Below, piece by piece: positions 7,877-28,702 of a DNA stretch of 61,288 nt. Source of the DNA: Chthoniobacteraceae bacterium (GTDB lineage Bacteria; Verrucomicrobiota; Verrucomicrobiia; Chthoniobacterales; Chthoniobacteraceae). Location of the stretch: contig CANJZW010000017.1 in NCBI GenBank assembly GCA_947479475.1, forward strand, positions 1-61,288, given 5' to 3'. The translations under genes were made by a program, and so were the position numbers. How positions within the stretch are numbered: position 1 is the first letter of the stretch; each line of letters starts with the position of its first letter. The notes under the pieces were generated by a model that was given only the letters and a program-made list of their open reading frames with translations, had not been told where the DNA came from and ran no database searches.

Positions 7877-7881
7877 TTTTG

Positions 7882-10800: not shown

Positions 10801-11985
10801 ACCGCCAATGGGCCGGGCGGACTGGAAGTCTTCGATGTGGCCAATATCGACAACAAGGGCTTCAGCGAGCGGATCACCAGTTCACCCGTCTCCCCGCTGG
10901 GCGGCCAGAGCACGGTGGTGCGCTCCAAGTTTGCGACCTCCGTCGCCCTGCCCAGCACGCTGATGATCGATCCGGAACGCACGCACCTTCCTCGCAACGA
11001 GGAAACCCCGATCCACCCCTCCTATGGGTACGTCTACGTGACCGACCGCGAGGAAGGGCTCATCATCGTCAAAACAACCTCGCTGCTGGATGGGGATCCG
11101 AAAAACAACTTCCTCTCCCGCAGCCAGCTCAAGAACGCTGAAGGGAAGAAAATAGGCGATCACTTCAACCCCGACGGCAAGTTGTCGGGCGCTGAATTCG
11201 CCATCTACGCGGGCCACCGTCTGTACGTGTGCACCAAACGCGGGCTGGCCGTGGTGGACATCAGCGAACCGGAGCGGCCGCTCCTTGTGGGCGAACTGGC
11301 CGACGGCTCCCTGCGCAACCCGAAAGCGGTCGCCATTCAGTTTCAGTACGGGTTTGTGACCGACGATGACGGGCTCAAGGTGATCAGTCTGGAGAATCCA
11401 AAAGCTCCAAAGCTGGTATCCCGCGCAACGGTGCCCTTGAAACACGCCCACAAACTCTACGTGGCCCGGACCTACGTTTACGTCGCAAACGGCCCCGAGG
11501 GAATTGCCATCGTCAACATCGAAAAGCCCGCCCAGCCGCGCCTCGAGCGCATGTACAACGCCGACGGAGCGCTCAACGACACTCACGCCCTGCAACTCGG
11601 CTCCATCGCGGCCTCCATGTACGCTCTGGTGGCGGATGGCAAAAACGGACTGCGTGTGATCCAGATGATCTCGCCAGACACGGTGGATGGCGCCGCAGGA
11701 TTCAGTCCGGCGCCCGCGCCCCGCCTGATTGCCACCTACCCGACACCGACGCCGATGCTCGCCGTTTCCCGCGGTCTGGACCGCGACCGGGTGGTGGACG
11801 AAACCGGCAAACAAACCGTCGTCTTCGGCCGCCGCGGCTCCAAACCGCTCACTCTGGAAGAGATGTCCCGCTTCCTCAAACACGCCAACGGTTCCTTCTT
11901 CAGGGTAGAGGACGTGACGGGCTCGGGGGACGTTGTACGAACCAAGTCCGGCGCGCCGCTACCGCCTCCGGTGGAGAAACGCTAG
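7882..11985 (+). CDS. Ten-haem c-type cytochrome fused to LVIVD-type beta-propeller
   Basis: This is a 1367-residue exported protein with a signal peptide (LLIPLFLLLAGAWCALAQA). I count ten CXXCH haem-attachment motifs: CMECH, CTDCH, CGLCH, CTACH, CMNCH, CVDCH, CIDCH, CQVCH, CFGCH and CTDCH, between about residue 155 and 875. The C-terminal third carries repeated blocks of the LVIVD type (YLYTANGPGGLEVFDVANI, LYVCTKRGLAVVDISEPERP, YVYVANGPEGIAIVNIEKP, ALVADGKNGLRVIQM), expected to form a beta-propeller. ATG at 7882 is preferred to the TTG three bases before it. Location is periplasmic or cell surface. With the barrel upstream it could move electrons across the outer membrane or act as a multihaem oxidoreductase; the substrate is unknown. 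Confidence 0.92.
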   Translation: MRVLRSIFQKKAPRLLIPLFLLLAGAWCALAQAPANRGVGPATSAPAAEAPSLFRDRGAAIAPSRVYFAPADAEPGAAPLTGSGSGPATAAPPASTPPKNLPAKSPTGPIASQPLPHGNSSGFPFGPHTAGKVPAVHAAPRPPKNWIDQSPEEAKRKSAGCMECHTQTDSHTMHASPTVVLGCTDCHGGDPAKGLPILKAHVQPLNPEFWKGSANPPNSTVALNHESPEFIRFMNPGDLRAAKAACGLCHSDIVDRVSNSMMTHGGMLWNAAAYNNGAINIKDAVVGQAYGADGVPLSLQNPFKPTEEETRTLGILPSLSPLPRFNITQPGNLFRVFEKGGIDPLTLGVPTADEAPGKPEKRLSSRGLGTLSRTDPVFLGAQKTRLHDPLLGFMGSNDRPGDYRSSGCTACHVVYANDRSPSNSGWWSQYGNQGLSFSKDPTIPKNERGHPIVHQFTRAVPSSQCMNCHMHQGNAFVNPYLGYIWWDQETDAEFMYPKTQHDPSDDELVRANVKNPEAASARGLWGDLGFLEKVAELNPKLKHTQFADYHGHGWIFRAIFKQDRKGNRLDLEDNVVAHSDFKRAVHLKDIHLTKGMQCVDCHFNVDVHGNGNLYGEVRNAETIECIDCHGTVSERPRKMVEGRITMPTSGASGETTPKDRRTIKPVDLMTTKTSWRPRFEWDGDRLFQNSTMSPDIRWEVPQTVDVINPASPKYNAKARYAKTIERDGVTWGADGETDAAACERMAHNNKKMDCQVCHTAWATSCFGCHLPMKANTRVAQNKYEGAVDRNFITYNPQVVRDDVFMLGMDGTVKKNRLAVIRSSSAILVGSQNNNREWVYSQQQTVSAEGYSGQAFNPHFAHTTSGKGTTKNCTDCHLAKSGDNNAWMTQLLGFGTGTVNFFGRYAYVGGEKALHGVVWTEAEEPQSALGSSFHKIAYPRNFAEHLARNRRLDEAYEHHAHTINDLTLRGEYLYTANGPGGLEVFDVANIDNKGFSERITSSPVSPLGGQSTVVRSKFATSVALPSTLMIDPERTHLPRNEETPIHPSYGYVYVTDREEGLIIVKTTSLLDGDPKNNFLSRSQLKNAEGKKIGDHFNPDGKLSGAEFAIYAGHRLYVCTKRGLAVVDISEPERPLLVGELADGSLRNPKAVAIQFQYGFVTDDDGLKVISLENPKAPKLVSRATVPLKHAHKLYVARTYVYVANGPEGIAIVNIEKPAQPRLERMYNADGALNDTHALQLGSIAASMYALVADGKNGLRVIQMISPDTVDGAAGFSPAPAPRLIATYPTPTPMLAVSRGLDRDRVVDETGKQTVVFGRRGSKPLTLEEMSRFLKHANGSFFRVEDVTGSGDVVRTKSGAPLPPPVEKR

Positions 11986-15021: not shown

Positions 15022-17115
15022 TTACTTCGAGTCCATTTTCCAAACACCCTTCCAATCAGGAGGCGGGTTGAGTGCAAGGTGTTCACACCGTTTCCCCAGC
15101 GTACGGCTGGCGCCGTCGGAGAACGTTTCATGCAGTTTTTTAAATGCCGCTTGCGCCTCGGCAAAGTGTCCTGCGGAATAAATCGCGTAGGCGGCGGTAT
15201 AAGCCTCACACAACTGGGCGTAGTTGGGGGGCGTGCAAGGGTTCTCGCATTCCAACAATTCGATCGGCTCGGTCTTTCCTTTAACGATGGCCCTGTCCAC
15301 CAGGCGGTGAGTCCCAGGGTTTGTAAACTGCGCAAAAGTTTCGCGCGAAACGAGCAGGCGCACCCCGTAGTACTTCGTGAGCCCCTCGATGCGTGAGGCC
15401 GCGTTCACGCTGTCGCCTACCAGCCCATAATCCAACCGCTTTGCGGAACCCTTGTTGCCCACGAGGACCCGCCCGCTGTGCAAGGCCACGCCGTATCCAA
15501 AGATCTCCAGAATCTCCGCTGAAAAGGAAGCCCGCAACGCCTCCATGGCCGTGATGAGGGCAGAGGCCGCACGCAAGGCCCTGTCTGCAGCGTCAGGCTG
15601 AGGCTTGGGCGCACCCCAATAACTCAGGAACTGATCGCCCAGAAAGTGCTCAAGGTTTCCCTGCTGCTTCATGATGGCGTTCGTCTGCGCCTCGAAGACT
15701 TTGTTGAGCAAGTCAAACATCCCCTGCGGACCGAGGATTTCTGCCAGAGGCGTGGAGTTTCGCAAGTCCGTGAGCAACAGCGTCACGTCCGCGTGTTTGG
15801 GCTGCATCGAACCGGGATCCGCCAGAACCGCCTCCAGGACCGTGGGGGAAAAATACAGGCCCATGGTGTGCTTGAGTTTCACGCGGTCGAGCCGTTCCCG
15901 AAAAAAGTCGTAGAAAAGGATCAGCACGCCGCCTCCCATCAGTGCAAAAAGAGGTGCCGCCACGGGAACCACCCAGCCCATCCGGTCGTAGCACCACTGC
16001 GCCAGCACCCAGTAACTGGCGACACTCATGACCACGGTGCCCAGTCGCTGCAAGGGCTGGAAGTTGTGGAAGGACAGCGCGCCCGCGAGCATCCCCGAAA
16101 GGAGAATGATCGCTATGGCGAGAGATTTGGGGGTTTCATGCAAAAACTCTTTCTGCAGCGCCGCCGCCAGAATGTTCAAATGCACCTCCGGACCGTTCAT
16201 CTGGCGCTCGGTAAAGGGGGTGTCGTGCTCGTCGTGGAAGATCCCGGCGGTCGGCCCGATCAACACAATCTTGTTTCGAAAAAAGGCTCCGTTGCCGTAG
16301 TTTTTCTCCCAGACTTGGGGTACTAGCACGTCGCCAATGGGATGGACTTTATAGCCCGTTCCAGGCGCGCTGCCATAGCGGAAGCGCGTCATTTCAAAAG
16401 CGGAGGGAATAGCGTCGAACCTGCCGAATTTTTCTAGCACTCTGGAGGCGAGGGATTCCATCACGACCGTTTCCTCCACCACAAACCCCGCCTGCGCTCC
16501 GGTTTGGCGAAACCGGTTGCGTCTGACCACCCCGTCAGGGTCCTTGGGGATATTCACATAGGCGACCCTGTCGTCCTGGACGAGCGCCTCGTTGTCGGCG
16601 GCGGGCAGCACCACCGAGTTCGGGGAGATGAGGTGCAGGAAATCACCACGGTCTGTCTTTTGCGTGCTCAGGGTGCAGCCAATCACAACCTTGTTCTTAT
16701 GCTTAACGAGGGCCTCCGCCAGCCGCGCATCTCCGACATTGGGCGAGCCAAACACTAGATCGAAGGCGATCACCTTTGCCCCCGCCCCGGCAAGTTTATC
16801 GATGAGCTCCGCCCAGACCGCGCGCGACCAGGGGAAATCCTTCTGTAACTCCCTTAAAATGGGGGCCCTTTCCAGATCCTCGTCCTTGAAATCGCTTGCG
16901 GGATAAGTGGGCCGGTCAATGCCAATGAGCACCAACTCAGGTGAGACCGGGGTTTTCCTCCCCAGCCGGGTCCGGACGTCCCCAGTGAAGATTTCCAAAT
17001 CCCGCAAAGGAGCGTAAGGAATGCCTTCGATCAAACCGGAAAGCACAAGAGCCAGAATCGAACATCCCAAACAGATGCCGATGAAAGCTTGGCGGCGGTC
17101 AATTTCTTTACTCAT
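15022..17115 (-). CDS. CHASE2-domain class III adenylate/guanylate cyclase
   Basis: This is a 697-residue inner-membrane protein. One N-terminal helix (about 10-30) is followed by a periplasmic CHASE2 sensor domain (about 35-330), three transmembrane helices (about 335-415) and a C-terminal class III cyclase domain (about 440-610). Metal-binding Asp residues are present in LLLTDLRNST and FLGDQFLSYWGAP, and the transition-state Asn and Arg in GDSVNAASRIE. The Lys that normally selects adenine in the KFxGD segment is replaced by His (LEHFLGD), while the partner Asp in LDYGLVGD is kept, so substrate choice is not certain. It is the last gene of the minus-strand block that also encodes a cyclic-nucleotide-binding ferredoxin. 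FecR next to CHASE2-cyclase is a common pairing. Confidence 0.92.
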   Translation of the reverse strand: MSKEIDRRQAFIGICLGCSILALVLSGLIEGIPYAPLRDLEIFTGDVRTRLGRKTPVSPELVLIGIDRPTYPASDFKDEDLERAPILRELQKDFPWSRAVWAELIDKLAGAGAKVIAFDLVFGSPNVGDARLAEALVKHKNKVVIGCTLSTQKTDRGDFLHLISPNSVVLPAADNEALVQDDRVAYVNIPKDPDGVVRRNRFRQTGAQAGFVVEETVVMESLASRVLEKFGRFDAIPSAFEMTRFRYGSAPGTGYKVHPIGDVLVPQVWEKNYGNGAFFRNKIVLIGPTAGIFHDEHDTPFTERQMNGPEVHLNILAAALQKEFLHETPKSLAIAIILLSGMLAGALSFHNFQPLQRLGTVVMSVASYWVLAQWCYDRMGWVVPVAAPLFALMGGGVLILFYDFFRERLDRVKLKHTMGLYFSPTVLEAVLADPGSMQPKHADVTLLLTDLRNSTPLAEILGPQGMFDLLNKVFEAQTNAIMKQQGNLEHFLGDQFLSYWGAPKPQPDAADRALRAASALITAMEALRASFSAEILEIFGYGVALHSGRVLVGNKGSAKRLDYGLVGDSVNAASRIEGLTKYYGVRLLVSRETFAQFTNPGTHRLVDRAIVKGKTEPIELLECENPCTPPNYAQLCEAYTAAYAIYSAGHFAEAQAAFKKLHETFSDGASRTLGKRCEHLALNPPPDWKGVWKMDSK

Positions 17116-17199
17116 GGGAATGGGATTTAACAGAACGCCGTAGCCTAGGACCCTTCCCTAGCCGATCGGCCTTCGCAACAGAGGGGGCGCGGGACTCCG

Positions 17200-18195
17200 T
17201 TAAAACTGCATCCTAAAGGAGAACCCTACGCCCGTATCCACCTTCTGATAATCTTCAATAGTGACGTCGCTCGAGTCGCGCGCCTCAAAGTTGGCGAAGG
17301 TGCGCAAACTGATATCATTGGTCAGGGCGTAAGCCAGAACGAGGCCAACCGTTTGAATCACTTCTTTGCGCGCGTGATTGCGCGTGTACTGGGTGAGCTG
17401 CGCGCGATAAAAAGGCTGGCACACCAGACCCTGCAAAAGTTCCCGCGTATAGGTCAGTGTGGCTGCTTCGTCCACGCGGTCGTAGTGGTCGGTATAAGGG
17501 GCGTCGACATGCGAGATGTGCCCGCCAACGCCAATACTTGCTGAGAACGCCGACTTTTTGCCCAGCTCAAAGGAGCGCTGAAGGCTCATATTGGGGGCGA
17601 ATTCGCTGTAGAATTCTTCGTAGGTGCCTCCATCGGCACTCAGGAGGCGGTTATGATCCAGCCCAACCATTGCCACCCATTTTTCATGAAACAGGTAACG
17701 CCACTGCATGAAAATAGAGCTCACATCGAAGTCCGAGTCATTGATGGAAACCTCGCTTCCTCCAGTCCCCAAACCGTAATTAAACTTCTGGTGGCGGTAG
17801 CCCAGCTTGGTGGACAACTCGCCTCCAGGCACCTGCCAGGCGGGCGGCGTCACCGCAGCCTGCACCGTCGAAATCATCAGGGACGTTTCAGTCTTTGCGT
17901 TCTCGTACTGCGTCGCGTTTGAGGTGGAGCCGAACTGGACATCCGTGGAAGCCTCCAGCCAGGAGTGGCGGGGCTTTTGGCGGATAAGCACCTGCGGCCC
18001 CACGTCCTTGTCTTCATCCTCGTACAGGGAGGAGATCGCCTGGGTGGCGGGTGTTTGCAAACGGGGAACGAGGTTCAAGCGCTCGATCTGCTGGGTAGCC
18101 GAATCGATGCGGTTTTGAGCAGAGCTGACTTCCGAGAGGGCACCCAAAGCGGCAAGCGCCAGGCAGGGACCGAGGCGATGAAAACGTGATTTCAT
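17200..18195 (-). CDS. Putative outer-membrane beta-barrel protein
   Basis: This is a 331-residue exported protein with signal peptide (CLALAALGALSEVSSAQN). After a short polar lead with an acidic stretch (YEDEDKDVGPQVL), the sequence alternates as in a beta-barrel, with many aromatic girdle residues, and ends in VDTGVGFSFRMQF, with a terminal Phe typical of outer-membrane proteins. The start at 18195 is chosen over an upstream frame opening because it gives a clean signal peptide and a 19-base gap to the FecR gene. Such barrels are often found between FecR and CHASE2-cyclase genes. The role, perhaps export or anchoring of the FecR/beta-helix protein, is inferred. Confidence 0.8.
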   Translation of the reverse strand: MKSRFHRLGPCLALAALGALSEVSSAQNRIDSATQQIERLNLVPRLQTPATQAISSLYEDEDKDVGPQVLIRQKPRHSWLEASTDVQFGSTSNATQYENAKTETSLMISTVQAAVTPPAWQVPGGELSTKLGYRHQKFNYGLGTGGSEVSINDSDFDVSSIFMQWRYLFHEKWVAMVGLDHNRLLSADGGTYEEFYSEFAPNMSLQRSFELGKKSAFSASIGVGGHISHVDAPYTDHYDRVDEAATLTYTRELLQGLVCQPFYRAQLTQYTRNHARKEVIQTVGLVLAYALTNDISLRTFANFEARDSSDVTIEDYQKVDTGVGFSFRMQF

Positions 18196-18214
18196 AGAGA
18201 AGAACACTAGTGGA

Positions 18215-20233
18215 TTATCTGCCGTTTGACGCCTTGGTGACACCGACCGGCAGTGCGCCCGCGTAGATTGGAACGCTGTTATATTTCACCCCGCCAATAA
18301 AGTTGATGGAGCGCTCCACGCTGGAGCCCACGTTGATTTGACCATTGCCAGATTTGAGCGCTACGGTGGATCCCGGCCCTCCCTTGAAATCCACGTTCCT
18401 CAGGTTGATGGTCCGACCATTCAGCAGAACGTTTGCGGCGTTCACCTCGACGTTCGTCAGGTTGATCGTTCTTGCATCTACAGAAATGCTGGCCGCATTC
18501 AACTTCATCGCGGGACCGGAGCTGGCGATGTTAACATCCCCGCCGGCCACCATACGCAGCGTTGCATTGGGGGCCGTGAACTCCCTCGCCCAGGCGCTGT
18601 TGAAGGAAATGTCGTTGATGGCCGTCATCGTCACATTACCCCGCGCATAAACGCTCGTATTGGTCGCGGTGATGGAGTTCCCGGCGATTTCAACGGAACC
18701 GGAACGGTTAAACAGGATGGATTCGGTGAGCGCGATTGTCGAAGCCACGGAGGCGTCGGCGATGCCAAGCACAAAGGCCTCGGATTTTGCGTTGAGGAGA
18801 GTTCTGTTCACCGTCACAGATCTGCCCTGGATCAAAAGCAGTTTTTCCGTCGCGACAGGTCCCTGGGCGCCGGCCAGTTCGGCGGTGAAATCGGCCAAAC
18901 CGAGGCCTTCCACCGGGGGGCCAACCGGCCGCGGAGCGCCCGGCATGGGAGTGCTCGGATTTAAGTCAGCATCTGTTCTTGCGTCGTCGATGAGAACCGC
19001 CCCGGCAGCCGCAATGATTTTTAAGTCGATGCGCAGGTCGGGGAACAGAAACTCCGCGAGGCTTCCCCCCTCGGTGAAGTGCTCCAGCGGAGGTGTTGGC
19101 AATTCCCCTGGGAGCGGCGGGATAAAGTCCAGCCCCGTCACCCGCAGGTTGTTTGCCAGCAAGAGCCGTGTGAATTTGTCCCCGTAGTCCAGCTTCAGCT
19201 TGCTATAACTTGCCGCTCCAAAGACGGAGGCAAGGGACTGAGGCACGCTGGAACCGGCGGACAACGTGAGGCGGCTCAACAAGCTGTTAAAACTCAGGCG
19301 AGTTTGGCCCGAACCAAACAGGCTCGAGCCGGGTTCCTTCCCATGCTGGCCCAAAACCGACACGTCCTGCGCCAAGGCAAAGCGAATCGTGGCGTCCGTC
19401 GCGATATCGGTATTGATCCCCTTGGCTTTTTCGGTGGGTCGAACGTCCGCCCGGCGCAGGGGCGGCGCCCCGTTCCCATCCTCCATCAGATGTTCGCCCC
19501 GCACTCTGAGTCGGGTGGGTTCCGCCCGGCCGTCAGTAATCATTCGCTCCTGCTTCTCCATCGAGGCCATTACCTTGCCTTCAGAGGCCACCGGGGCGCG
19601 GAACCCCTTCAGCAAACTGGAACCCGCCACCTGGTCTTTGAGCCGGAAGTTGAGCACCGGTCCAAATTCAGTTTTCCCTGGAGACACCACCGTGAGTTGG
19701 CCCGCGGTGACGGCGATTGAATTGCCGCTGGGCAGCGTGGCCTTGGCCTTGCCTTCGAGAACGAGCAGTTTGAATCCTCCGCTGGGGGTTGCCGTGACAA
19801 TGAGCGTGGTTCCCATGACAGCCGCCTGTGCGCCCTCAGAGGAAATCACACCGCCCCCCTTCCCCGTGGGCGAATGGAAGAGGATGCTCCCCTTTTGCAT
19901 TTTGACCTCTCTTTTGTCCGCCGCGAAGGAAAACACGGTGTTGGCGCCCACGCGGGTCACCGTGCCGTCGGGCGCGATAAGTTCCGCCCTCGAGTTTGCG
20001 CCGGTGGAGACCTGGTCGGGCACCTTGAAAGCTTCATTGACCACCGCCGGCCGAGACCGCTGGGAGGCGGAGTCAATGACCATGACTTTGTCTACAACCT
20101 CGCTAAACTTGAGCGTGTTGAAGTTCGCCGGCGCCGCGCCAATGGCGGGAGAACCCAACGCAGGAAGAGCGAGCAACGCCGCGGTGATTCGCATCCAATA
20201 AGCAGCGTAGGAGGTCGTAAACGGGAAGGACAT
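18215..20233 (-). CDS. FecR-domain exported protein with beta-helix-like tail
   Basis: This is a 672-residue exported protein. The signal peptide (MRITAALLALPALGSPAIG) is followed by a FecR domain (about 50-190), with VSTGANSRAELIAPDGTVTR, VGANTVFSF and VMGTTLIVTATPSGGF blocks as usual for the family. The C-terminal third (about 430-640) is made of short Asn/Thr/Val-rich repeats (SITATNTSVYARGNVTMTA, SISVDARTINLTNVEVNA, VLLNGRTINLRNVDF) that should fold as a parallel beta-helix, as in filamentous haemagglutinin-like proteins. ATG at 20233 is preferred to a TTG at 20311. It sits between the cNMP-binding ferredoxin and the barrel/cyclase pair. It has no sigma or FecI gene nearby, so this is not a TonB-type regulator. 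Confidence 0.87.
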   Translation of the reverse strand: MSFPFTTSYAAYWMRITAALLALPALGSPAIGAAPANFNTLKFSEVVDKVMVIDSASQRSRPAVVNEAFKVPDQVSTGANSRAELIAPDGTVTRVGANTVFSFAADKREVKMQKGSILFHSPTGKGGGVISSEGAQAAVMGTTLIVTATPSGGFKLLVLEGKAKATLPSGNSIAVTAGQLTVVSPGKTEFGPVLNFRLKDQVAGSSLLKGFRAPVASEGKVMASMEKQERMITDGRAEPTRLRVRGEHLMEDGNGAPPLRRADVRPTEKAKGINTDIATDATIRFALAQDVSVLGQHGKEPGSSLFGSGQTRLSFNSLLSRLTLSAGSSVPQSLASVFGAASYSKLKLDYGDKFTRLLLANNLRVTGLDFIPPLPGELPTPPLEHFTEGGSLAEFLFPDLRIDLKIIAAAGAVLIDDARTDADLNPSTPMPGAPRPVGPPVEGLGLADFTAELAGAQGPVATEKLLLIQGRSVTVNRTLLNAKSEAFVLGIADASVASTIALTESILFNRSGSVEIAGNSITATNTSVYARGNVTMTAINDISFNSAWAREFTAPNATLRMVAGGDVNIASSGPAMKLNAASISVDARTINLTNVEVNAANVLLNGRTINLRNVDFKGGPGSTVALKSGNGQINVGSSVERSINFIGGVKYNSVPIYAGALPVGVTKASNGR

Positions 20234-20323
20234 GGCGACGGTAATAGTTGGATCGGGGCGGCGGCGGGACCGCAGTTCAGTCGGCGGCAGTCTGTGGGTG
20301 GAGTCAGGCAATTCAGGAAAAAC

Positions 20324-22837
20324 TCACTTCCTGTTCGGATCCGAATTGCCGGAGAGAACCAACTGCAGGAGTTCCTCCCCCGTATAGCGGTCGGCGGCAT
20401 CGTGCGGGCAGGAGGAGACGCAACGCGGTTCGGGGATGTCTTTTTCCCCCTCCGCATCGCAGAGGTCACAAGCCACGGCCTTGGGCTGAGCCAGGCGCAG
20501 GGTCTGGCCGGGCTGCGTAGAGACCGCCTTGACCGGCGCGTTTTCATTGGGCACCATGAAGATACTGCCGTAGGGGCAATTATTGGCGCAGAGACCGCAG
20601 CCGATGCAGTGGTCTTCAATGACGATCTGCAGATGTTTGCCCCTGTGAATGGAGTCGACGGGACAACCCACCATGCAGTGGGCCTCCACGCAAGAGCGGC
20701 AGGAAGTGGCCACCATGAAGTTGCCCAAACGCATGCCATCGCGAAGCAACCGGGTGACAGGCACACCGTGCGAATGGGTGCCGTGTTGCTCCACGCACCC
20801 CTTGGTGCATTCGTCGCAGCGGATGCAAAGGTCCATGTTCAGGGCCAGAATACTGCGCCCCTCGTAGAGCCCCTGGCCCACGTAATTGTCGAGAATCGGG
20901 TCCGAATTGTTATCCCCCTTCAAGAAACTCAGAGAACGCACAATGAGATTGCGACGCAGGGTGGGAAAGGCGCGCAGCATGGGAAGGAAGTCCTCGCGAC
21001 TCAACCGGGCCACCTCCAATTGTCCGAGCGCCGAGCAACTAGCCGAGCGAACTCCGGTGGGGAGCACTTTGGCAAGATCGACCCCGTCCTGATTGAGTAC
21101 CTCCACCAAGGACCGCTCCACCTCCTCCGCGCTTCTGTAAGCGTCGCCCGCATCCAAGCCGAGCATGCCGATTTCACCAATCAGTCCTCCCGGCCCGCGA
21201 GAGACCACCCTGGACTCCTGCTCGTAACGACGGATCCCGATACGAGTGTAGCCCAAACGCACGATGTAAAGGCAGTCGGCGGAATCCCCTTGATTGAAGA
21301 GTACCTGGCCGGGATTGATCTTCAAAAAGCTGATGCGCGGCCGCATATAGTCGATGAGCCGCGTGTACTCCTCCTTGGGAATCCCCTCGAAGATGCTCAA
21401 GGACTGCAAAGCGAGGTTGAGGGAACGCTCCCGGTAGGCGGATTCAAACTTCTGGCGCTGGCTGGGCAGGCGCATCAGGCGGTCCAGAACGTTCCGGCGG
21501 ATTTCCCATACCTCGCCGTCTTCGAGCACCTTGAGATCCGCGCTTCTGGGTGAACCACTCAGGCAGGACATTTCGCCCACGATCACATCGGCGGGCGTGA
21601 CCTCGACCTCAAAGACAACCTCCTTGCTCGAGTTCGCCATCCAGGCGCTGAAAAAGCCCTTCTTATCCGGCGCGACAGACTTGTAAACGGTGGTCTGATA
21701 CCGACCGGAGCGCAGAATGAAAGCCGTGTTTCCAGGATCGCCCTGGTGCACAAGAAGACTGCCCGCCTTCACCTTGCGCCGCACGACCAACCCCTCCTGC
21801 CACAACAAAAACTTTGGAGGAACCCCCGCAAACAAGGGGTCCTTGAGGAGTTCTTCGGCGGAAATTTTCTCCACCGTCCCCTGCCTGGGCACCGGCTTCA
21901 CCGAGGCGACCGGGTTGAAGGTAATGGCGCTGGTGGGGCAGGAAATCATGCATTCCCCACACTGCACGCAGCCGCTTTCCCCCATGGGTTCGTCCAGGTC
22001 AAACCCAATGGAGGCCTGGGCACCCTTGCCGGTGCGGCCAATGATGTTGTTGCCCTTCACCTCGTTGCAGGCGCGCACGCAGCGGTCGCAAAGCACGCAG
22101 GCGCTGTGGTCGGTCACAAACACTGGGGACGAGGTATCAACGCGCTGCCTGTGGGCAATGGCCTCAGGTTGGAGGGGGGAGAAAACTTCGCTTTTGAGCC
22201 GCGAGGGGTCGGCGCCGCAGCGCGACAATAAACGGCCCAGTTCGTTGAAGGGGGCCAGTTCTTTATCCAGTTCCGCACGGGGCGCCGGCTTGAGGTGGTC
22301 GACCGCCAGCAACTCGGTGAGCGTCTTGACGGATTTCCGCACCCGTTCGCCGTCGGGCCCGGCGTCCTGCATCGTGAACACCTCCATGCCCTCCTTGACC
22401 TGGTGCTGGCAGGCGGGGAGCAGCTTGCGTTCAGCCGCGCGTTTGCCGCGCTTCTGACCGTAAATTTGAACCACGCACAGCCTGCACACCGCCACAGGTT
22501 TCATGTGCGCCTGATGGCACAACACAGGGATGGGGATCTTCACCTCGTCGCCCGGTTGTTTGACGTAAAGCTTGGTGGCGGCGTCGTAGATGGTCGTGTA
22601 GCGGGGCGTGGTGCGGCCCTCCAAATCCAGAATGATGTTCCCGTTGGCGTCCTGGGAAGGCTCCGCCATCGGCACAGTCACGCTCTGGCCGTCAATCTGC
22701 AGGGTGATGTTCCGGCCGTAATCCCGCTCCACAGGGGCGTCCAGACGCACCAACTGTCCATTGATGTCGCGGCTGAAGAGTCCTTCGTCTTCGTCTTCGC
22801 GGGCTAGGGTCGCGGGAAAGTCGGTTGTCGGTAACAT
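20324..22837 (-). CDS. NuoG/HoxU-like polyferredoxin with two cyclic-nucleotide-binding domains
   Basis: This is an 837-residue cytoplasmic iron-sulfur protein. An N-terminal [2Fe-2S] domain uses C107, C118, C121 and C143. Two [4Fe-4S] sites follow (C247/250/253/257 and C290/293/296/300). Two CAP_ED cyclic-nucleotide domains lie at about 340-460 and 480-625; the first has GEM (421-423) and the phosphate-binding PRSAD (R431), the second has GEI and VRSAS (R597) split by an extra 25-30 residues. The C-terminus (671-820) is a four-cluster ferredoxin like DmsB/HybA. The His-Cys3 cluster of NuoG is not visible. It probably receives electrons from the NuoEF-like protein and passes them to membrane cytochromes, gated by cAMP or cGMP (inferred). 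AGGAGG lies about 8 bases before ATG. Confidence 0.93.
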   Translation of the reverse strand: MLPTTDFPATLAREDEDEGLFSRDINGQLVRLDAPVERDYGRNITLQIDGQSVTVPMAEPSQDANGNIILDLEGRTTPRYTTIYDAATKLYVKQPGDEVKIPIPVLCHQAHMKPVAVCRLCVVQIYGQKRGKRAAERKLLPACQHQVKEGMEVFTMQDAGPDGERVRKSVKTLTELLAVDHLKPAPRAELDKELAPFNELGRLLSRCGADPSRLKSEVFSPLQPEAIAHRQRVDTSSPVFVTDHSACVLCDRCVRACNEVKGNNIIGRTGKGAQASIGFDLDEPMGESGCVQCGECMISCPTSAITFNPVASVKPVPRQGTVEKISAEELLKDPLFAGVPPKFLLWQEGLVVRRKVKAGSLLVHQGDPGNTAFILRSGRYQTTVYKSVAPDKKGFFSAWMANSSKEVVFEVEVTPADVIVGEMSCLSGSPRSADLKVLEDGEVWEIRRNVLDRLMRLPSQRQKFESAYRERSLNLALQSLSIFEGIPKEEYTRLIDYMRPRISFLKINPGQVLFNQGDSADCLYIVRLGYTRIGIRRYEQESRVVSRGPGGLIGEIGMLGLDAGDAYRSAEEVERSLVEVLNQDGVDLAKVLPTGVRSASCSALGQLEVARLSREDFLPMLRAFPTLRRNLIVRSLSFLKGDNNSDPILDNYVGQGLYEGRSILALNMDLCIRCDECTKGCVEQHGTHSHGVPVTRLLRDGMRLGNFMVATSCRSCVEAHCMVGCPVDSIHRGKHLQIVIEDHCIGCGLCANNCPYGSIFMVPNENAPVKAVSTQPGQTLRLAQPKAVACDLCDAEGEKDIPEPRCVSSCPHDAADRYTGEELLQLVLSGNSDPNRK

Positions 22838-22849
22838 GGAAAAAGCCTC

Positions 22850-24904
22850 CTAGGATTGGGGTTGCGGTTTTACCACGGGAGCGGTGAGGTGTTTGGCGAC
22901 GTCCTCGGGGAAAAAATTCACGAGCGAGCGCAGAGGCGCGGGCACGGAACGGCCAAGGCCGCAGATGGAGGAGAGTTCGATGGCCCCCAGCAGATCCTTC
23001 ATCAGGGGCAGCAACTCCTCCTTCCACGTCGTGGCGTCAATCTTTCCGGCAAATAGGCTGTCCGCAAGCGAAGTCATTTTCTGGGATCCCAACCGGCAGG
23101 GCACACATTTGCCGCAGGATTCATTCCGGTAAAACTCCATGGAATAGAGCGTCTGCTCGGCCATATCGCGCCCCTCCGCGTAGACGACAAGCCCAGCCCC
23201 CAGCGCCTGCGTCGGGCTCAGAGCGCGGAACAGGTTCAGCTCCAGTTCCAGGTCCAGAATGTCGATCTCGGGGCTGGCCGGGTCGATCCCACGCCGGGCG
23301 GCGAGGGCGATCCAGGCTTTGTTGTTCACGTGGTCCCGAGGCAAGCCGGCACCCGCTTTGAGCTTGGCAGGAAGAAACCCGCCGGAGGGACCCGAAGGCG
23401 CAAACGCCTTCATCGGCAGATCCCTGACGATCCCGCCACAGTAGTTCTCGCCGTAAATAAGTTCGCGCAGGGTCATCCCCATGGGAACCTCGTAGACCCC
23501 CGGCTTTTTGACATCCCCCGAGATGGAGAAAAACCGCCGTCCCTTCCATCCGTTCACCCCGAGGCCGGCGTACGTGGCGCCCCCTTTGACGAAGATGTAG
23601 GGCATCCAGCCGTAGGTCTCCACATTGCTGACGATGGTGGGAAGATCCTGCAGTCCGTTAGTCTCCAGCTTGGGGGGCATGTTTCTCGGTTCGGCACGCC
23701 GGTCCGACATGGCCTCAATCAGGGCGCTCTGCTCCCCGCAGATGTAACCGCCCGGGCTGACAAAGACGCTGACGGGAAAGGCTCTCCCCAGAACCGACGC
23801 GTCCGAACCACACATCCCGAGGCTCTCGGCCCGCCGGATTTCAGCGCGGCAGGCTTCGATTTGCTCGGTGTATTCGTGCCGGATGTAGATGAACCCTTGG
23901 GAGGCTCCCGTCAAAAGTCCAGAGAGGATCACTGCCTCCACAATCAGATGAGGAGTGCGCAGTAAAAGCTCACGGTCCTTGAATGTGCCCGGCTCGCTTT
24001 CATCTCCGTTGACGACCACAAAAGCCCGGGTGTCGGTGCCTCGCACGAGCGCGGTGCGCACGGCATCGCGCACGTCACGAAGCTTTGTGGCGACCGGAAT
24101 ACCTGCCCCGCCCATCCCTCGGAGGTCCGCGGCTTCAAACTCTTCGAGAACAAGCTCCGACCAACCGCCCAGTTCCTTGCCCTTGGCCCAATCCTTGTCG
24201 GTCTGCCACGCGAGCACCGCAGCCGCCACTTCCAACTCCGCCAATATTCCAGCGCGAGCCTCCCCTACCGCTCCCTGCCGGAAGGCCTCCATCTGGTGGG
24301 GGCCAAGGCTGAACTTTTCAGAGGCCAGTTTGGCAGCCGCCAGAATCGAGGCGTCCCGGGCCAATACCGCCTTGCGCACCGCCGAGTAGTCGGAGGGTTT
24401 TCCCTCGTAAAGATCGATTTGAAACGCCGCAGCGCCTTCGGACAAACCGGCGTCTGTGTCCTGTACCGGCGGGCTGCCCCCTAAAGCGCCGCGCACGATG
24501 GACTCCAACTCGGCGGCACTGCGCCCCAAATGGTAGGGCTCGTGCTCTTCACCGGCCATCCCCAGACAAGCGGCCGGTGCCCGGTCGCAGCGGCCCAGAC
24601 AGGAGACCCCCTTGACTTCGACCCCTTCGGGAAGGGATTTCTTGAGCGCATCCATCGTTTTACGCGAACCCGCCATCTGGCAGGCCATATCCCGACACAC
24701 ATGCAGCGTCACCTTGGGTGGCGGGGAGAAGCGGAAGTGTGGGAAAAAACTACCCACCGCCTGAAGCCGGGCTAGGGGGATGCCACTTTCCTTGGCGAAC
24801 TGCTCCATCGCGTCGACCTGCAGATAGCCGAACTGATGCTGAATGCGCTGCAATGCCGGAACAAGAACGGCGGCGTACGGAGGCTGGGGTGCCGAAACAC
24901 TCAT
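22850..24904 (-). CDS. Fused NuoE-NuoF-like NADH-oxidising flavoprotein
   Basis: This is a 684-residue cytoplasmic protein. The N-terminal NuoE-like thioredoxin fold binds [2Fe-2S] with C70 and C75 (CX4C) and C102 and C106 (CX3C). The NuoF part carries the FMN/NADH Gly-rich segment (LRGMGGAGIPVATKLRDV), VNGDESEPGTFKDREL, an SLBB-like stretch, and the C-terminal [4Fe-4S] motif SCGKCVPCRLGS with the distal Cys in SSICGLGRS. It should oxidise NAD(P)H and feed the adjacent ferredoxin, as HoxFU or the N-module of complex I do. Its ATG overlaps the TGA of the decahaem gene (ATGA, 24901-24904), so translation is coupled. No other complex I subunits are present in the window. Confidence 0.94.
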   Translation of the reverse strand: MSVSAPQPPYAAVLVPALQRIQHQFGYLQVDAMEQFAKESGIPLARLQAVGSFFPHFRFSPPPKVTLHVCRDMACQMAGSRKTMDALKKSLPEGVEVKGVSCLGRCDRAPAACLGMAGEEHEPYHLGRSAAELESIVRGALGGSPPVQDTDAGLSEGAAAFQIDLYEGKPSDYSAVRKAVLARDASILAAAKLASEKFSLGPHQMEAFRQGAVGEARAGILAELEVAAAVLAWQTDKDWAKGKELGGWSELVLEEFEAADLRGMGGAGIPVATKLRDVRDAVRTALVRGTDTRAFVVVNGDESEPGTFKDRELLLRTPHLIVEAVILSGLLTGASQGFIYIRHEYTEQIEACRAEIRRAESLGMCGSDASVLGRAFPVSVFVSPGGYICGEQSALIEAMSDRRAEPRNMPPKLETNGLQDLPTIVSNVETYGWMPYIFVKGGATYAGLGVNGWKGRRFFSISGDVKKPGVYEVPMGMTLRELIYGENYCGGIVRDLPMKAFAPSGPSGGFLPAKLKAGAGLPRDHVNNKAWIALAARRGIDPASPEIDILDLELELNLFRALSPTQALGAGLVVYAEGRDMAEQTLYSMEFYRNESCGKCVPCRLGSQKMTSLADSLFAGKIDATTWKEELLPLMKDLLGAIELSSICGLGRSVPAPLRSLVNFFPEDVAKHLTAPVVKPQPQS

Positions 24905-26424
24905 GGTTGCAATTTCAAAGGGGTGGACGGGACGGCAGGGCGGGACGAAGCCTCCAGAGGCGGGGCCGTGTAGGAACTGTGGAAATGGTGGCAGTTTTGG
25001 CAGGAGAACTTCACCCCCTCCTTGCCCGCAGCGACGGGCTGGTGGCACTCGGTGCAGGACTGTTGGGTGGGCAGCAGGATGTCGCTGGTCAACTTGCTCT
25101 TGGTCGCCGCCCCGTGGCAGTCGATACAAGCGGATGCCTTGTGAGGCAGGTGATTAAACGCCCCTTTGGAAAGCCACCGTTTGGGAATCTGCGGCGCCTG
25201 CACGGCCATTTCCAACCCGTTTCCACCCGCGTTTACCGTGTGACACTTGGCGCACTCTGTTAAAAACTTGGGCTTCCCGGAGCGCATCAGGCGTTCCCCG
25301 CTCACGTCCTGGGGGTCGCCCTGGAGAAAAACCCGCTTCTGAAGGTCCTCAAGAGAGAACAAGCCGCGCTGCCGCAGCGCCTCCTTCTCCTCCTTGACCC
25401 GGTTGGAAACGGCCACCGGTTCCTTCACCCCCGTTGCGCGCACGCTGGATTCAATCGAGGACTCCAAACCCGCGAGGAAAAGCCGCACCTTCTGAGAATC
25501 CCCGTGCGGAATATGGAGATTCGGGAGGCTTTGCTGAATCTGCAGCGAGTGACACTCCTGACAATGTTTCTCGTATTGCACAGGCTGGTAGAATGCGCCA
25601 TCCGCCTCGGGCTGGTGGCAGGAAGCGCAATCCAGCTTTGCGTTGTTGAGCTTGGGAATATCGGAACGAAAATGACGCGCGTGGTTGAATTTGAGGTCGT
25701 CCGGATCCACCGCTCCCGGCCGCTCGTACCCGAAGCCGGGATGGCCCTGGGCGAAACTCTCAAAGGCGGGGACGGCTCCCGCTGGGGCTGCCGGCGGAAG
25801 AAACACAATCACTCCACCCCCCAGATCGAGCGCACCGCCACCATTCCCGGCAGCCTGGAGGACGGTGGGGCGCTGCGCCTGGGCGGGACGGGAGGCCTCC
25901 ATTTTGGACACAGAGCCGTGGCAGTCGGTGCAGGTCTGGCTGGAAGGCAGCGCCATCCGGTGCGGCCCTGCGTGCTCCCGGTGGCAACTCGCGCAGGAGG
26001 AAGCATGCACAAGGCCCGCTGGCGGCGCGAGGTTCAGTCCGATGTTCCGCACCTGGGGCGCATGGAGGCCGGAACCCGCGTGGCACTTCAAACAGGCCGC
26101 GTCCATGGCTTCCAGTGAACCGATTTTTGCAAACTTCACCAGGGCATCCCCAACGCCGTCCCATCCCGCCTTGGCGTCCACCCCGGTGTGACAAGTGTCG
26201 CAGCGGTCCTCCAAATGGGCGTGGTTCTGCGAGAGGCGACCGGTGCTGAAGACTTTTTGGGAGCCCCATTTATCAAACCCCAACACCCCAAGAACACAGA
26301 GAGTCAAAGTGGCTGCGAAACACCAAAACTTCAGGCTGCGCAGGTAGTGAGGGCGGCGGAAATACGCGAGATTACCGGAGTACCCCTTGGAGATTTTCTT
26401 CTGAGAATCAGGAATTTCAGGCAT
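24901..26424 (-). CDS. Membrane-anchored decahaem c-type cytochrome
   Basis: This is a 507-residue protein. A cytoplasmic tail of about 28 residues leads into a single transmembrane anchor (FWCFAATLTLCVLGVLGF), and the rest is periplasmic. I count ten CXXCH motifs: CDTCH, CLKCH, CASCH, CTDCH, CASCH, CQECH, CAKCH, CIDCH, CTECH and CQNCH. Spacing resembles cytochrome c7/c3-type electron-transfer proteins. ATG at 26424 is preferred because it follows the cytochrome b stop by 4 bases and yields a normal anchor. It should take electrons from the cytochrome b next door and hand them to periplasmic or outer-membrane cytochromes. It overlaps the NuoEF-like gene by 4 bases. Confidence 0.93.
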   Translation of the reverse strand: MPEIPDSQKKISKGYSGNLAYFRRPHYLRSLKFWCFAATLTLCVLGVLGFDKWGSQKVFSTGRLSQNHAHLEDRCDTCHTGVDAKAGWDGVGDALVKFAKIGSLEAMDAACLKCHAGSGLHAPQVRNIGLNLAPPAGLVHASSCASCHREHAGPHRMALPSSQTCTDCHGSVSKMEASRPAQAQRPTVLQAAGNGGGALDLGGGVIVFLPPAAPAGAVPAFESFAQGHPGFGYERPGAVDPDDLKFNHARHFRSDIPKLNNAKLDCASCHQPEADGAFYQPVQYEKHCQECHSLQIQQSLPNLHIPHGDSQKVRLFLAGLESSIESSVRATGVKEPVAVSNRVKEEKEALRQRGLFSLEDLQKRVFLQGDPQDVSGERLMRSGKPKFLTECAKCHTVNAGGNGLEMAVQAPQIPKRWLSKGAFNHLPHKASACIDCHGAATKSKLTSDILLPTQQSCTECHQPVAAGKEGVKFSCQNCHHFHSSYTAPPLEASSRPAVPSTPLKLQP

Positions 26425-26428
26425 GCCT

Positions 26429-27337
26429 TCAGAAGGGTTTGGAGACCAAAAAATGGAGGCCGGCCCAAGCGTGCCAGCCTGTGACAATGATCAGCGCAAG
26501 CGAGCTGGGGACGTGCAGCAAGAGCCAGCCGTGCAACCAGTGCTGGAACCTCGTCTGCAAATCCATCATCCGGCGGGATTGGCACCAGTTCTCCATGGCC
26601 GCCACGCGGGGCCGCCATTCGGAGCGAACGTTGATTCTCAGGTTCTTGAACATCTCAGCCGCATTCCGTTCGTTCCCAAGGCGGCAAGAGCCCGCGGACT
26701 TAAGCGTGAGATATGGCAGGCACTCCTCGTCCAAAAAACGGGCCAGAATCCTCGGGGAACCATCCCCGTCCACCCCCAAAGCGAGCGCTTCGGCCACATC
26801 CGCCCGCAACCGGCTGGCCTCCTCCAAAAGCTCTGCGCGCAGGAACGGGATTTGCTCGAAAACAACCTCCCTCTGCAGGCTGTTCTTCATCAGGGATGGC
26901 AAAAAGTGCTGCAGCACGACTCCAAAAACCCCACTGGCCATCACCACGGCGTAAAGGGCCACCAACCCGGTCGTGTGTGGCCCACCCAAGCGGAATCCAG
27001 AGTGCAAAAAGACAAGTGGCACGGTCAAAATCGTTAGCCACAGGTGCGCTTTCAACCAGGTTTGGACGCTTCCCAGCGGCCACAGTCTTTTCTTTTTCCG
27101 CACCCCCAAAGCCGCCGCGAACAGGAAAATCCCAAACGCCACACCCCCAAACAAAAGGCCAAGCGGCGTCCCTCCATAGGTGACGCTCGCGGGAGGCACC
27201 GGCCCTAGGAAAGAAGGGAGATGGAGTCCCAGAGGCAGAAAAACCACATGTTGGTTCGCTGCGTACAAGAGGGCAGCCAAAGCTGCCACCCCTGTCACAG
27301 TCAGAAACCATGGTAGGTGCGAACGATCGATCCTCAT
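26429..27337 (-). CDS. Dihaem cytochrome b-like membrane protein
   Basis: This is a 302-residue inner-membrane protein with about five helices. Helix 3 has the pair AHLW...FLHSG and the last helix LLHVP...GWHAW; in each case the two His are separated by 13 residues (HX13H), the arrangement used to ligate two stacked b haems in the cytochrome bc1/b6 fold. Between helices 4 and 5 there is a soluble loop of about 110 residues rich in Glu and Arg. ATG at 27337 is chosen; an upstream frame opening at 27466 crosses the divergent promoter region. It is the first gene of the minus-strand block and probably links the quinone pool to the decahaem cytochrome. No named family is certain. Confidence 0.85.
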   Translation of the reverse strand: MRIDRSHLPWFLTVTGVAALAALLYAANQHVVFLPLGLHLPSFLGPVPPASVTYGGTPLGLLFGGVAFGIFLFAAALGVRKKKRLWPLGSVQTWLKAHLWLTILTVPLVFLHSGFRLGGPHTTGLVALYAVVMASGVFGVVLQHFLPSLMKNSLQREVVFEQIPFLRAELLEEASRLRADVAEALALGVDGDGSPRILARFLDEECLPYLTLKSAGSCRLGNERNAAEMFKNLRINVRSEWRPRVAAMENWCQSRRMMDLQTRFQHWLHGWLLLHVPSSLALIIVTGWHAWAGLHFLVSKPF

Positions 27338-27541: not shown

Positions 27542-28702
27542 GTGCCAAAATTGGAAATGAAAGCTCTAACCCTTCTCTCACTGCTCAGCCTCTCACTCTC
27601 ATTCTCTGCGACCGCCGCCGATGGCGGAGAGATTGTCGCCAGCAGAAAGTTCACCGGCAACCAGTCCTGCGGCACCACGGGTTGCCATGGCGGCGGCACC
27701 CTCCACAACGAATCCATCATTTACGCGCGGAAAGACCCCCATGCGATCGCCCACGGGATTCTGGGCAAGGGAACTTCCCTCCGTATCGCCGAGGCTCTCG
27801 GCATCAAGGGAGACCCGATCAAGGACGTCCAGTGCAACGTTTGCCACTCCCCCATGCAGGGCGTCAGCGCCGACCTTTTTGTGAAAGATCTGAAGCCCGA
27901 TCTGGGCGTCGGCTGCGAGTCCTGCCACGGGGCAGCTGAAAACTGGCTGCGATTTCACACCCGCTCGGACGTGGTTTTCTCCCAAATCATCGCCGCCGGG
28001 ATGCGCGACCTCAACGACATCTACGGGCGCGCCAACTCCTGTGTGGGCTGCCACCTCAACCTGGACGATTCCCTGCGCAAAGCCGGCCATCCTGAACTCT
28101 TTTTCGAACTCGATGGCCAGTGTATGGCCCAGCCCCCGCACTACAAGGATGCCCGCCCCTCCCTCGGGCCCCGCTCTTGGCTGACAGGACAGGCAACGGC
28201 CCTTCGGGAAATGAGCTGGAAACTCTCCCAGAAAAACGACGAACACTTCCTCCCTCGCTGGAAGGCCTTAGTCTGGCTCCTGCAAAAAACGGAGCTCGGA
28301 AAAACCGAACTCCCCGCCACAGAAGCCTTCCCCGCCATGCAAAAGGCGGCTGACGAAATGGCGCGCAAAGCCTCCCAGAAGCTGTGGACCACCGCCGCCG
28401 TCCAAGCACAACTCCGCGAACTCTCCGCCCTCCACGGCGACTTCGAAGGCGCACAGTCGGACAAAACCCTGCTCCAAAGAAAAGCCGAAGTCCTCGTTCC
28501 AGCCCTGGACCGCCTCTGGCGCGACCTGCGCAAGGGCGGCGCACCCAACCAGTCTGAATGTGAAAGCGCCATCCAAACCCTTCATCTCCTCGCGATGGAT
28601 CATGAGGACTTTGACCCTGCCAAGTTTGCCAACACTTTGGGCCAGCTTAAGGTGGCCCTCTCGGCCACAGCGCAATCCACCCCCGCCCCAAAGCTTAAAT
28701 AA
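27542..28702 (+). CDS. Four-haem cytochrome c, cytochrome c554-like
   Basis: This is a 386-residue exported protein; residues 1-21 form a signal peptide (LTLLSLLSLSLSFSATAADG, first part). Four haem sites are visible in the first 170 residues: an unusual CX4CH (CGTTGCH near residue 42) and three normal ones (CNVCH, CESCH, CVGCH). The order and spacing fit the cytochrome c554 family. The C-terminal half (about 200-370) is haem-free and helical. It is divergent from the seven-gene block and should act as a soluble periplasmic carrier for it. The start could also be ATG at 27557 (MKALTLLS). Confidence 0.88.
   Translation: MPKLEMKALTLLSLLSLSLSFSATAADGGEIVASRKFTGNQSCGTTGCHGGGTLHNESIIYARKDPHAIAHGILGKGTSLRIAEALGIKGDPIKDVQCNVCHSPMQGVSADLFVKDLKPDLGVGCESCHGAAENWLRFHTRSDVVFSQIIAAGMRDLNDIYGRANSCVGCHLNLDDSLRKAGHPELFFELDGQCMAQPPHYKDARPSLGPRSWLTGQATALREMSWKLSQKNDEHFLPRWKALVWLLQKTELGKTELPATEAFPAMQKAADEMARKASQKLWTTAAVQAQLRELSALHGDFEGAQSDKTLLQRKAEVLVPALDRLWRDLRKGGAPNQSECESAIQTLHLLAMDHEDFDPAKFANTLGQLKVALSATAQSTPAPKLK

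Follow-up and report, generated by a model that had tools for sequence, protein, structure and literature searches.

A candidate NADH:multihaem-cytochrome oxidoreductase with a tandem cyclic-nucleotide-binding ferredoxin, adjoined by a CHASE2 cyclase unit in a Chthoniobacteraceae bacterium

Results

The stretch of DNA analysed here, referred to throughout as the window, comprises positions 1–61,288 of contig CANJZW010000017.1 in assembly GCA_947479475.1, from a Chthoniobacteraceae bacterium. Its minus strand carries, between positions 15022 and 27337, a block of seven genes whose open reading frames (ORFs) start at 27337, 26424, 24904, 22837, 20233, 18195 and 17115. The ORF coordinates reproduce the spacing given in the original prediction, which was made from the sequence alone (gaps of 4, -4, 12, 90, 19 and 84 bases). 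That prediction took all seven genes as one system. This is not borne out by comparison with homologous loci, since the last three genes adjoin the others in this genus only, and the block appears to be two units: a conserved electron-transfer module of four genes (cytochrome b, decahaem cytochrome, NuoE-NuoF fusion and ferredoxin) and an envelope-sensor unit of three (FecR protein, barrel and CHASE2 cyclase). Scanning for promoters and terminators was uninformative on transcript limits: promoter-like sites numbered 3 against 2.8 expected, and terminator-like sites 12 against 15.9.

At the centre of the module is a ferredoxin of 837 aa (20324–22837, minus strand), for which Pfam gives Fer2_4, 4Fe-4S domains and two cNMP_binding stretches, in agreement with the two cyclic-nucleotide-binding (CNB) domains that had been predicted. 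From the N-terminus it comprises a NuoG/HoxU-like part, with a 2Fe-2S site (Cys107/118/121/143) and a 4Fe-4S dicluster (eight Cys, 247–300), then CNB1 and CNB2 in tandem (about 335–645), and finally a HydN/DmsB-like four-cluster ferredoxin (16 Cys, 671–810). None of these cluster Cys varies in any of the 39 aligned rows, seven partial rows (L029, L030, L041, L045, L052, L066 and L068) having been dropped from the pocket alignment. The phosphate-binding cassette of CNB1 (residues 421–431, 21545–21577) retains Gly421, Glu422 and Arg431 in every row. That of CNB2 (residues 554–599, 21041–21178) is split by an insertion between Gly554-Glu555 and Arg597-Ser-Ala599; its Gly, Glu and Ala are invariant and its Arg is kept in 38 of the 39 rows. 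The cassette Glu and Arg are residues which we take to be cyclic-nucleotide contacts. The CNB fold is present, and the best Foldseek matches of the tandem are to tandem CNBs of the PKA regulatory subunit (PKA-R) and PKG type.

The cytochrome b subunit (302 aa, 26429–27337, minus strand) has homologues in both phyla that carry the module, the Verrucomicrobia and the Planctomycetes. His 98, 112, 275 and 289 form two pairs, each 14 residues apart, and are invariant in 27/27 aligned rows (an alignment that omits L071, a near-copy of L072). This is the pattern expected for two bis-His b haems and supports the earlier description as dihaem. The protein has no family match in Pfam or NCBIfam, and its all-helical AlphaFold2 model (predicted local distance difference test, pLDDT, 83.9) found no clear fold match among PDB structures. 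The adjoining decahaem c-type cytochrome (507 aa, 24901–26424, minus strand) was correctly recognised: it has 10 CXXCH motifs, Cytochrome_C7/Cytochrom_c3_2 matches in Pfam, a single hydrophobic segment near the N-terminus (residues 30–51) and weak NCBIfam matches to HmcA, DmsE and QrcA. Exactly 10 CXXCH motifs are found in 28 of 30 homologues, the remaining two (L031, L059) being contig-end fragments.

Both domains of the HoxF-like NuoE-NuoF fusion (684 aa, 22850–24904, minus strand; NuoEF below) are evident in Pfam as Complex1_51K, 2Fe-2S_thioredx and NADH_4Fe-4S. The protein thus holds a complex I-type input, with an NADH/flavin mononucleotide (FMN) site and 2Fe-2S and N3-type 4Fe-4S motifs. 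A NuoH-type gene (PF00146) lies elsewhere in the same genome, on contig C5, and such a gene was found in 32 of 33 module-bearing genomes tested, this one included; NuoEF therefore looks like an extra NADH entry.

Conservation of the module

Ferredoxin homologues were sought in one genome per species, which gave 50 loci, and five of these (L073–L077) were set aside as distant hydrogenase-like or ferredoxin matches. The other 45 are either related over most of the ferredoxin's length or fragments at contig ends; by record title and similarity, 19 are Verrucomicrobia-type, including one with the title Riflebacteria, and 26 are planctomycete-type, including one whose title reads only Bacterium. 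NuoEF adjoins the ferredoxin at 41 of the 45, and the four misses (L030, L052, L066, L068) start at or within the ferredoxin gene. Where 5 kb or more of upstream sequence is available, both cytochrome genes of the module (b and decahaem) are present, in 18/18 planctomycete and 9/15 Verrucomicrobia-type cases. The six exceptions (L033, L034, L036, L038, L039, L043), judged from the available flanks, have the two genes side by side on another stretch, as do the genomes of L041 and L046, whose flanks are too short to judge linkage. The predicted NADH-to-cytochrome chain is thus upheld as a conserved unit at homologous loci in two phyla, and the pocket Gly, Glu and Arg of its ferredoxin persist between them at 31–36% overall identity.

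The cytochrome b and the ferredoxin also occur together. Among 57 genomes (that of the window and relatives), 22 have both, one has the ferredoxin only and 34 have neither. The E-value limit was 1e-3 for cytochrome b and 1e-30 for the ferredoxin, counted either whole or by its C-terminal part, a cut that weaker short forms would escape. The single ferredoxin-only genome, G007, is 68% complete and has the gene at a contig edge. The corresponding Fisher p of 7e-15 is too small, because the relatives are not independent. In 10 of the 23 ferredoxin genomes the protein is a shorter form without the NuoG part. It retains the pocket residues and has two CNBs in nine cases (Pfam was run on one), the tenth (L153) being cut by a contig end, and its gene adjoins the cytochrome b gene in all but one genome (G016). 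As this short form lacks the NADH part, the constant set, judged by gene content, appears to be the CNB-CNB-ferredoxin with cytochrome b and the decahaem cytochrome, NuoEF and NuoG being an added NADH input.

Record titles place the module in the named cultured relatives Zavarzinella formosa DSM 19928 and Limnoglobus roseus PX52. At L042, the locus titled Riflebacteria, the ferredoxin is 55% identical to that of the window and the genome has 24 class III cyclase matches; this is either a transfer or a mislabelled bin. At two further loci a CNB-bearing histidine kinase gene lies directly upstream of the NuoEF-ferredoxin pair (L039, 6323–7780; L043, 6695–7816), placing a further cyclic-nucleotide gene beside the module.

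The putative envelope-sensor unit

The three remaining genes of the block, all on the minus strand, encode a FecR-domain envelope protein (672 aa, 18215–20233), a putative outer-membrane barrel (331 aa, 17200–18195) and a CHASE2 class III nucleotide cyclase (697 aa, 15022–17115). FecR is the sole match above cut-off in the first, a genus-specific neighbour, so that only the FecR half of its earlier label as a FecR/beta-helix protein is confirmed. The barrel assignment could not be confirmed: the protein has no Pfam match, a weak match to EpsL (E 0.0035) and a C-terminal Phe. On contig C14 of the same genome, a paralogue of it follows a further CHASE2 cyclase gene. The cyclase is confirmed by Pfam (CHASE2 and Guanylate_cyc), and motif alignment finds the two Asp presumed to bind metal and the Asn/Arg pair presumed to act on the transition state. 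No sigma factor was found among the 20 window genes scanned, and a FecIR-type extracytoplasmic function sigma gene beside FecR was not seen.

Two loci outside the genus, L035 and L040, have CHASE2 cyclases with FecR-tetratricopeptide repeat (TPR) neighbours beside the module. In a tree of cyclases from 29 loci, a sample of the CHASE2 places found in which several rows have long branches, these two group together, apart from the genus cyclases (L101, at 413 aa, and L106 and L107, with no cyclase match at 1e-5, were left out). Given this separate clade, a CHASE2 cyclase became linked to the module on at least two occasions, through recruitment or through chance. The same two module clusters encode TPR-rich proteins in which Pfam detects a weak class III cyclase domain (L035, 1610–4036; L040, 13230–15683). 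In one genus member a CNB-only ORF of 234 aa overlaps the end of the cyclase gene (L044, 14505–15209).

Six class III cyclase domains are encoded in the genome itself, which is 93% complete. Five CNB proteins were found in it: besides the ferredoxin these are an ion channel, a CNB-only protein, a SulP-STAS transporter and a UPF0261 protein (L109, L110, L111 and L112). None of the five has a match to a DNA-binding (CRP-type) domain in Pfam. Few receptors compete for the messenger in this genome.

Neighbouring multihaem genes

A gene overlooked in the original prediction lies divergent from the module, at 27542–28702 on the plus strand, and encodes a C554-type multihaem cytochrome (386 aa, 3 CXXCH). 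It is also syntenic, being found at 9/15 Verrucomicrobia-type and 14/18 planctomycete loci with at least 5 kb upstream. At seven planctomycete loci (L048, L049, L050, L051, L055, L062, L070) two or three C554-type multihaem genes stand in a row, divergent from cytochrome b.

Further along the plus strand are a barrel-like protein of 798 aa (5480–7876), which may be an outer-membrane porin, and a large multihaem protein of 1368 aa (7879–11985) with 10 CXXCH and LVIVD repeats. The 798-aa gene is also linked to the module at L028, L029, L032, L035 and L040, and a region similar to its product occurs about 3.6–5 kb from the ferredoxin gene at the planctomycete loci L054, L069 and L070. The same order, with the 1368-aa gene behind the 798-aa gene and linkage to the module, recurs in G057, G061, G064 and L040. 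On this pattern of linkage the pair (5480–11985) are candidates for an outer-membrane exit, as tentative output partners. An FHA-Ser/Thr kinase gene behind the C554 gene (29479–31542, plus strand) was set aside as a partner: kinases lie near several planctomycete modules too, but Ser/Thr kinases are common in planctomycetes.

Discussion

We propose that the four-gene module would act as a membrane NADH:multihaem-cytochrome oxidoreductase. Electrons would pass from NADH through the FMN and Fe-S clusters of NuoEF to the 2Fe-2S and 4Fe-4S clusters of the ferredoxin N-terminal part, and from the C-terminal four-cluster part through the dihaem cytochrome b to the periplasmic decahaem cytochrome. 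Beyond this, they may reach the C554-type cytochrome and, perhaps, a barrel/multihaem conduit in the outer membrane. The tandem CNBs, which separate the ferredoxin's two Fe-S parts, would bind a cyclic nucleotide and so shift these parts, turning transfer up or down in the manner of a PKA-R-like switch set on an electron relay. The FecR/barrel/CHASE2 cyclase unit would sense the envelope and make the cyclic nucleotide; it seems to have been added on the same strand in this genus, and the ferredoxin is probably among the receptors reached by its product.

Parts of this proposal differ in strength. Computation establishes which genes are present, their conservation and co-occurrence, the haem and cluster motifs, and the fold and pocket residues of the CNBs; the sequence and direction of electron transfer, the identity of the ligand, the gating and the tie between cyclase and ferredoxin are inferred. 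Cytochrome b, the decahaem cytochrome, NuoEF and the ferredoxin very probably form one electron-transfer complex, and the conserved pocket residues make it likely that the CNB domains bind cyclic nucleotide. That this binding controls electron flow is evenly poised, and we give the two-unit explanation as a whole about the same chance of being right as wrong. NADH-to-cytochrome transfer under cyclic-nucleotide control is plausible. More tentative is the broadest form of the idea, in which a respiratory oxidoreductase of two phyla would have its relay gated directly by a second messenger, a tandem PKA-R-like switch joining NADH (or, in the short form, some soluble donor) to a dihaem b/decahaem c exit, with an envelope-sensing CHASE2 cyclase recruited next to it in two separate lineages of the cyclase.

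Several observations weigh against the proposal, the evidence for which is computational throughout. The ferredoxin model is of moderate quality (pLDDT 70.9, predicted template modelling score 0.52), and its CNB tandem does not superpose as a single body on PKA-R-type tandems (root-mean-square deviation 9.3–14.6). For HoxI, a CNB subunit belonging to a related diaphorase, NADP is the suggested ligand. In a rival reading the module is likewise one complex, but its CNBs would have NAD(P)H as ligand, in the way suggested for HoxI, and would sense redox state with no second messenger. The front ends are indeed the same, in that HoxF of Cupriavidus necator is colinear with NuoEF in BLASTP (29% over residues 250–667, 21% over 14–111) and HoxU matches the ferredoxin N-part, HoxI belongs to an NAD-reducing hydrogenase, and the short-form CNBs match HoxI with E down to 3e-8. 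However, the window ferredoxin barely matches HoxI (E 0.056), HoxI has His at the pocket-Arg position (read by eye from the alignment) where the module CNBs keep Glu and Arg nearly always, and class III cyclase domains occur in 45/45 module-bearing genomes, a count made in such genomes only. We consider NAD(P)H sensing unlikely. It seems very improbable that the CNB domains are ligand-free structural remnants forming a scaffold between the Fe-S parts; ligand-free CNB domains exist in other proteins, but here the pocket residues are kept across both phyla and in the short form. Hardly more probable is inward electron flow, in which a periplasmic or extracellular donor would feed the decahaem cytochrome and NADH would be the product of the module. 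Every step is reversible in principle and the C554-type cytochromes are syntenic, yet no energy-coupling membrane subunit is seen in the block, which would make uphill NAD reduction from c-type haems unlikely.

The other points against a cyclic-nucleotide-controlled module fed by its neighbour concern the cyclase. Its purine-selecting Lys/Thr (a role we assume) are replaced by His/Gly in 6/6 triad-type rows, so the adenine-selecting Lys plus Thr/Asp are absent and cyclic AMP and cyclic GMP cannot be told apart as product. The triad adjoins the module in the window, at L028, L030, L031 and L044 and, across a contig break, in G009, making six of the eight module-bearing genomes of the genus; G010, one exception, is 62% complete, and G008 has the module without this cyclase type. 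Of the four genus members without the module none has the triad-type cyclase, two of them having barrel homologues at 42–46% identity. The co-occurrence within the genus has a Fisher p of 0.06, and linked genes can be lost together. The search for conserved synteny envisaged in the original prediction succeeds for the NuoEF-ferredoxin pair and fails for the CHASE2 cyclase outside the genus, except at L035 and L040. These are 2 of 12 non-genus loci with a CHASE2 cyclase in the available flank, against roughly 0.11 such genes expected (gene counts taken by hand). As their cyclases form one clade they represent one event, with P 0.11 and not 0.006, and the argument from chance was dropped. CHASE2 is present in 19/19 Verrucomicrobia-type genomes with the module and was not found in any of the 26 planctomycete ones, many of them drafts. 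The cyclase profile gave nothing in 11 short-form stretches or in 8 around unlinked cytochrome b-decahaem genes, although it also misses the weak TPR-cyclases that Pfam detects at L035 and L040. Away from the module, too, this and related genomes have CHASE2 cyclases beside FecR or barrel genes.

A single seven-gene system was rejected on three of these grounds: the genus-limited triad linkage, the planctomycete modules without CHASE2, and G008. The same genus limit, the CHASE2 sets elsewhere, the planctomycete absence and the four other CNB receptors of the genome would also fit a self-contained envelope sensor that lies beside the module by accident, its product serving other receptors and the ferredoxin being fed by other cyclases or none. 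We take this seriously, while judging it somewhat short of an even chance. Against it stand the common strand and short gaps (90, 19 and 84 bases), the confinement of the cyclase type to module-bearing genus members (6/8 vs 0/4), and the second CHASE2/FecR set, of a separate clade, beside the module at L035 and L040. Overall, the neighbouring cyclase looks, from its distribution, like a later, local addition, and its link to the ferredoxin is only suggestive; it may be the relevant nucleotide source in this genus, but we hold this with some doubt.

Bacterial cyclic nucleotides are known chiefly as effectors of transcription and channels. If our proposal of a nucleotide-gated ferredoxin is correct, a switch within an electron carrier would let respiratory routing change immediately, with no need for protein synthesis. 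The proposal would also assign a role to an extensive set of orphan genes in Verrucomicrobia and Planctomycetes, which are frequent in soil and fresh water, and would hint at possible outer-membrane or extracellular respiration in these groups. With the pocket intact and the module present in named cultured relatives, the idea is directly testable.

Comparison with known systems

An electron-transfer complex with a built-in CNB pair, common to such distant relatives, is apparently undescribed. As the original prediction had supposed, no description of the gene set was found in the literature searched (outside which most subscription journals fall, so that one may exist elsewhere), nor was cyclic-nucleotide control of NADH-to-cytochrome transfer found in print there. 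Parts of the block do have precedents. In Burkholderia, the BiofilmReg operon places a LysM/FecR protein beside a CHASE2 histidine kinase; it shares the FecR-CHASE2 adjacency and has a histidine kinase and response regulator where the present unit has a nucleotide cyclase and putative barrel (PMC5192318). Freshwater Verrucomicrobia have a porin gene beside multihaem genes, proposed for extracellular electron transfer, with an eight-haem partner; the terms 'cytochrome b' and 'cyclic' do not occur in the main text of that source, and the likeness to the candidate porin at 5480–7876 is one of description (PMC5615132).

The peripheral arm of complex I (NuoEFG) shares with the module its NADH/FMN site and Fe-S relay, but the block has no visible quinone or proton-pumping subunits. 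Identity with complex I was rejected: a membrane arm has no match among the 20 window genes scanned, and the His-Cys3 ligands of NuoG cluster N5 are missing, there being no conserved Cys between residues 143 and 247 of the ferredoxin (position 207 is Cys in 13/16 Verrucomicrobia-type rows and most commonly Leu, Val or Thr in planctomycetes). Hmc, Qrc and DmsE-type membrane complexes likewise combine a four-cluster ferredoxin with a multihaem c cytochrome; the module differs in its NADH input, its tandem CNB and a cytochrome b outside Pfam and NCBIfam families.

The NAD-reducing hydrogenase of C. necator (HoxFUYHI2) resembles the module in having a NuoE-NuoF fusion, a NuoG-type ferredoxin and a CNB protein on its diaphorase. 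No HoxYH hydrogenase partner was found among the 20 window genes scanned, the part of the genome searched for it. There, however, the CNB forms a small subunit of its own, HoxI, which has His at the position of the pocket Arg, and the partner is a hydrogenase, whereas the module has two CNBs within the ferredoxin itself and partners this with cytochrome b and a decahaem c cytochrome. The tandem CNBs with phosphate-binding cassettes recall the PKA regulatory subunit and PKG, although the mutual placing of the domains is unmatched, and here they lie inside an electron-carrying protein rather than on a kinase.

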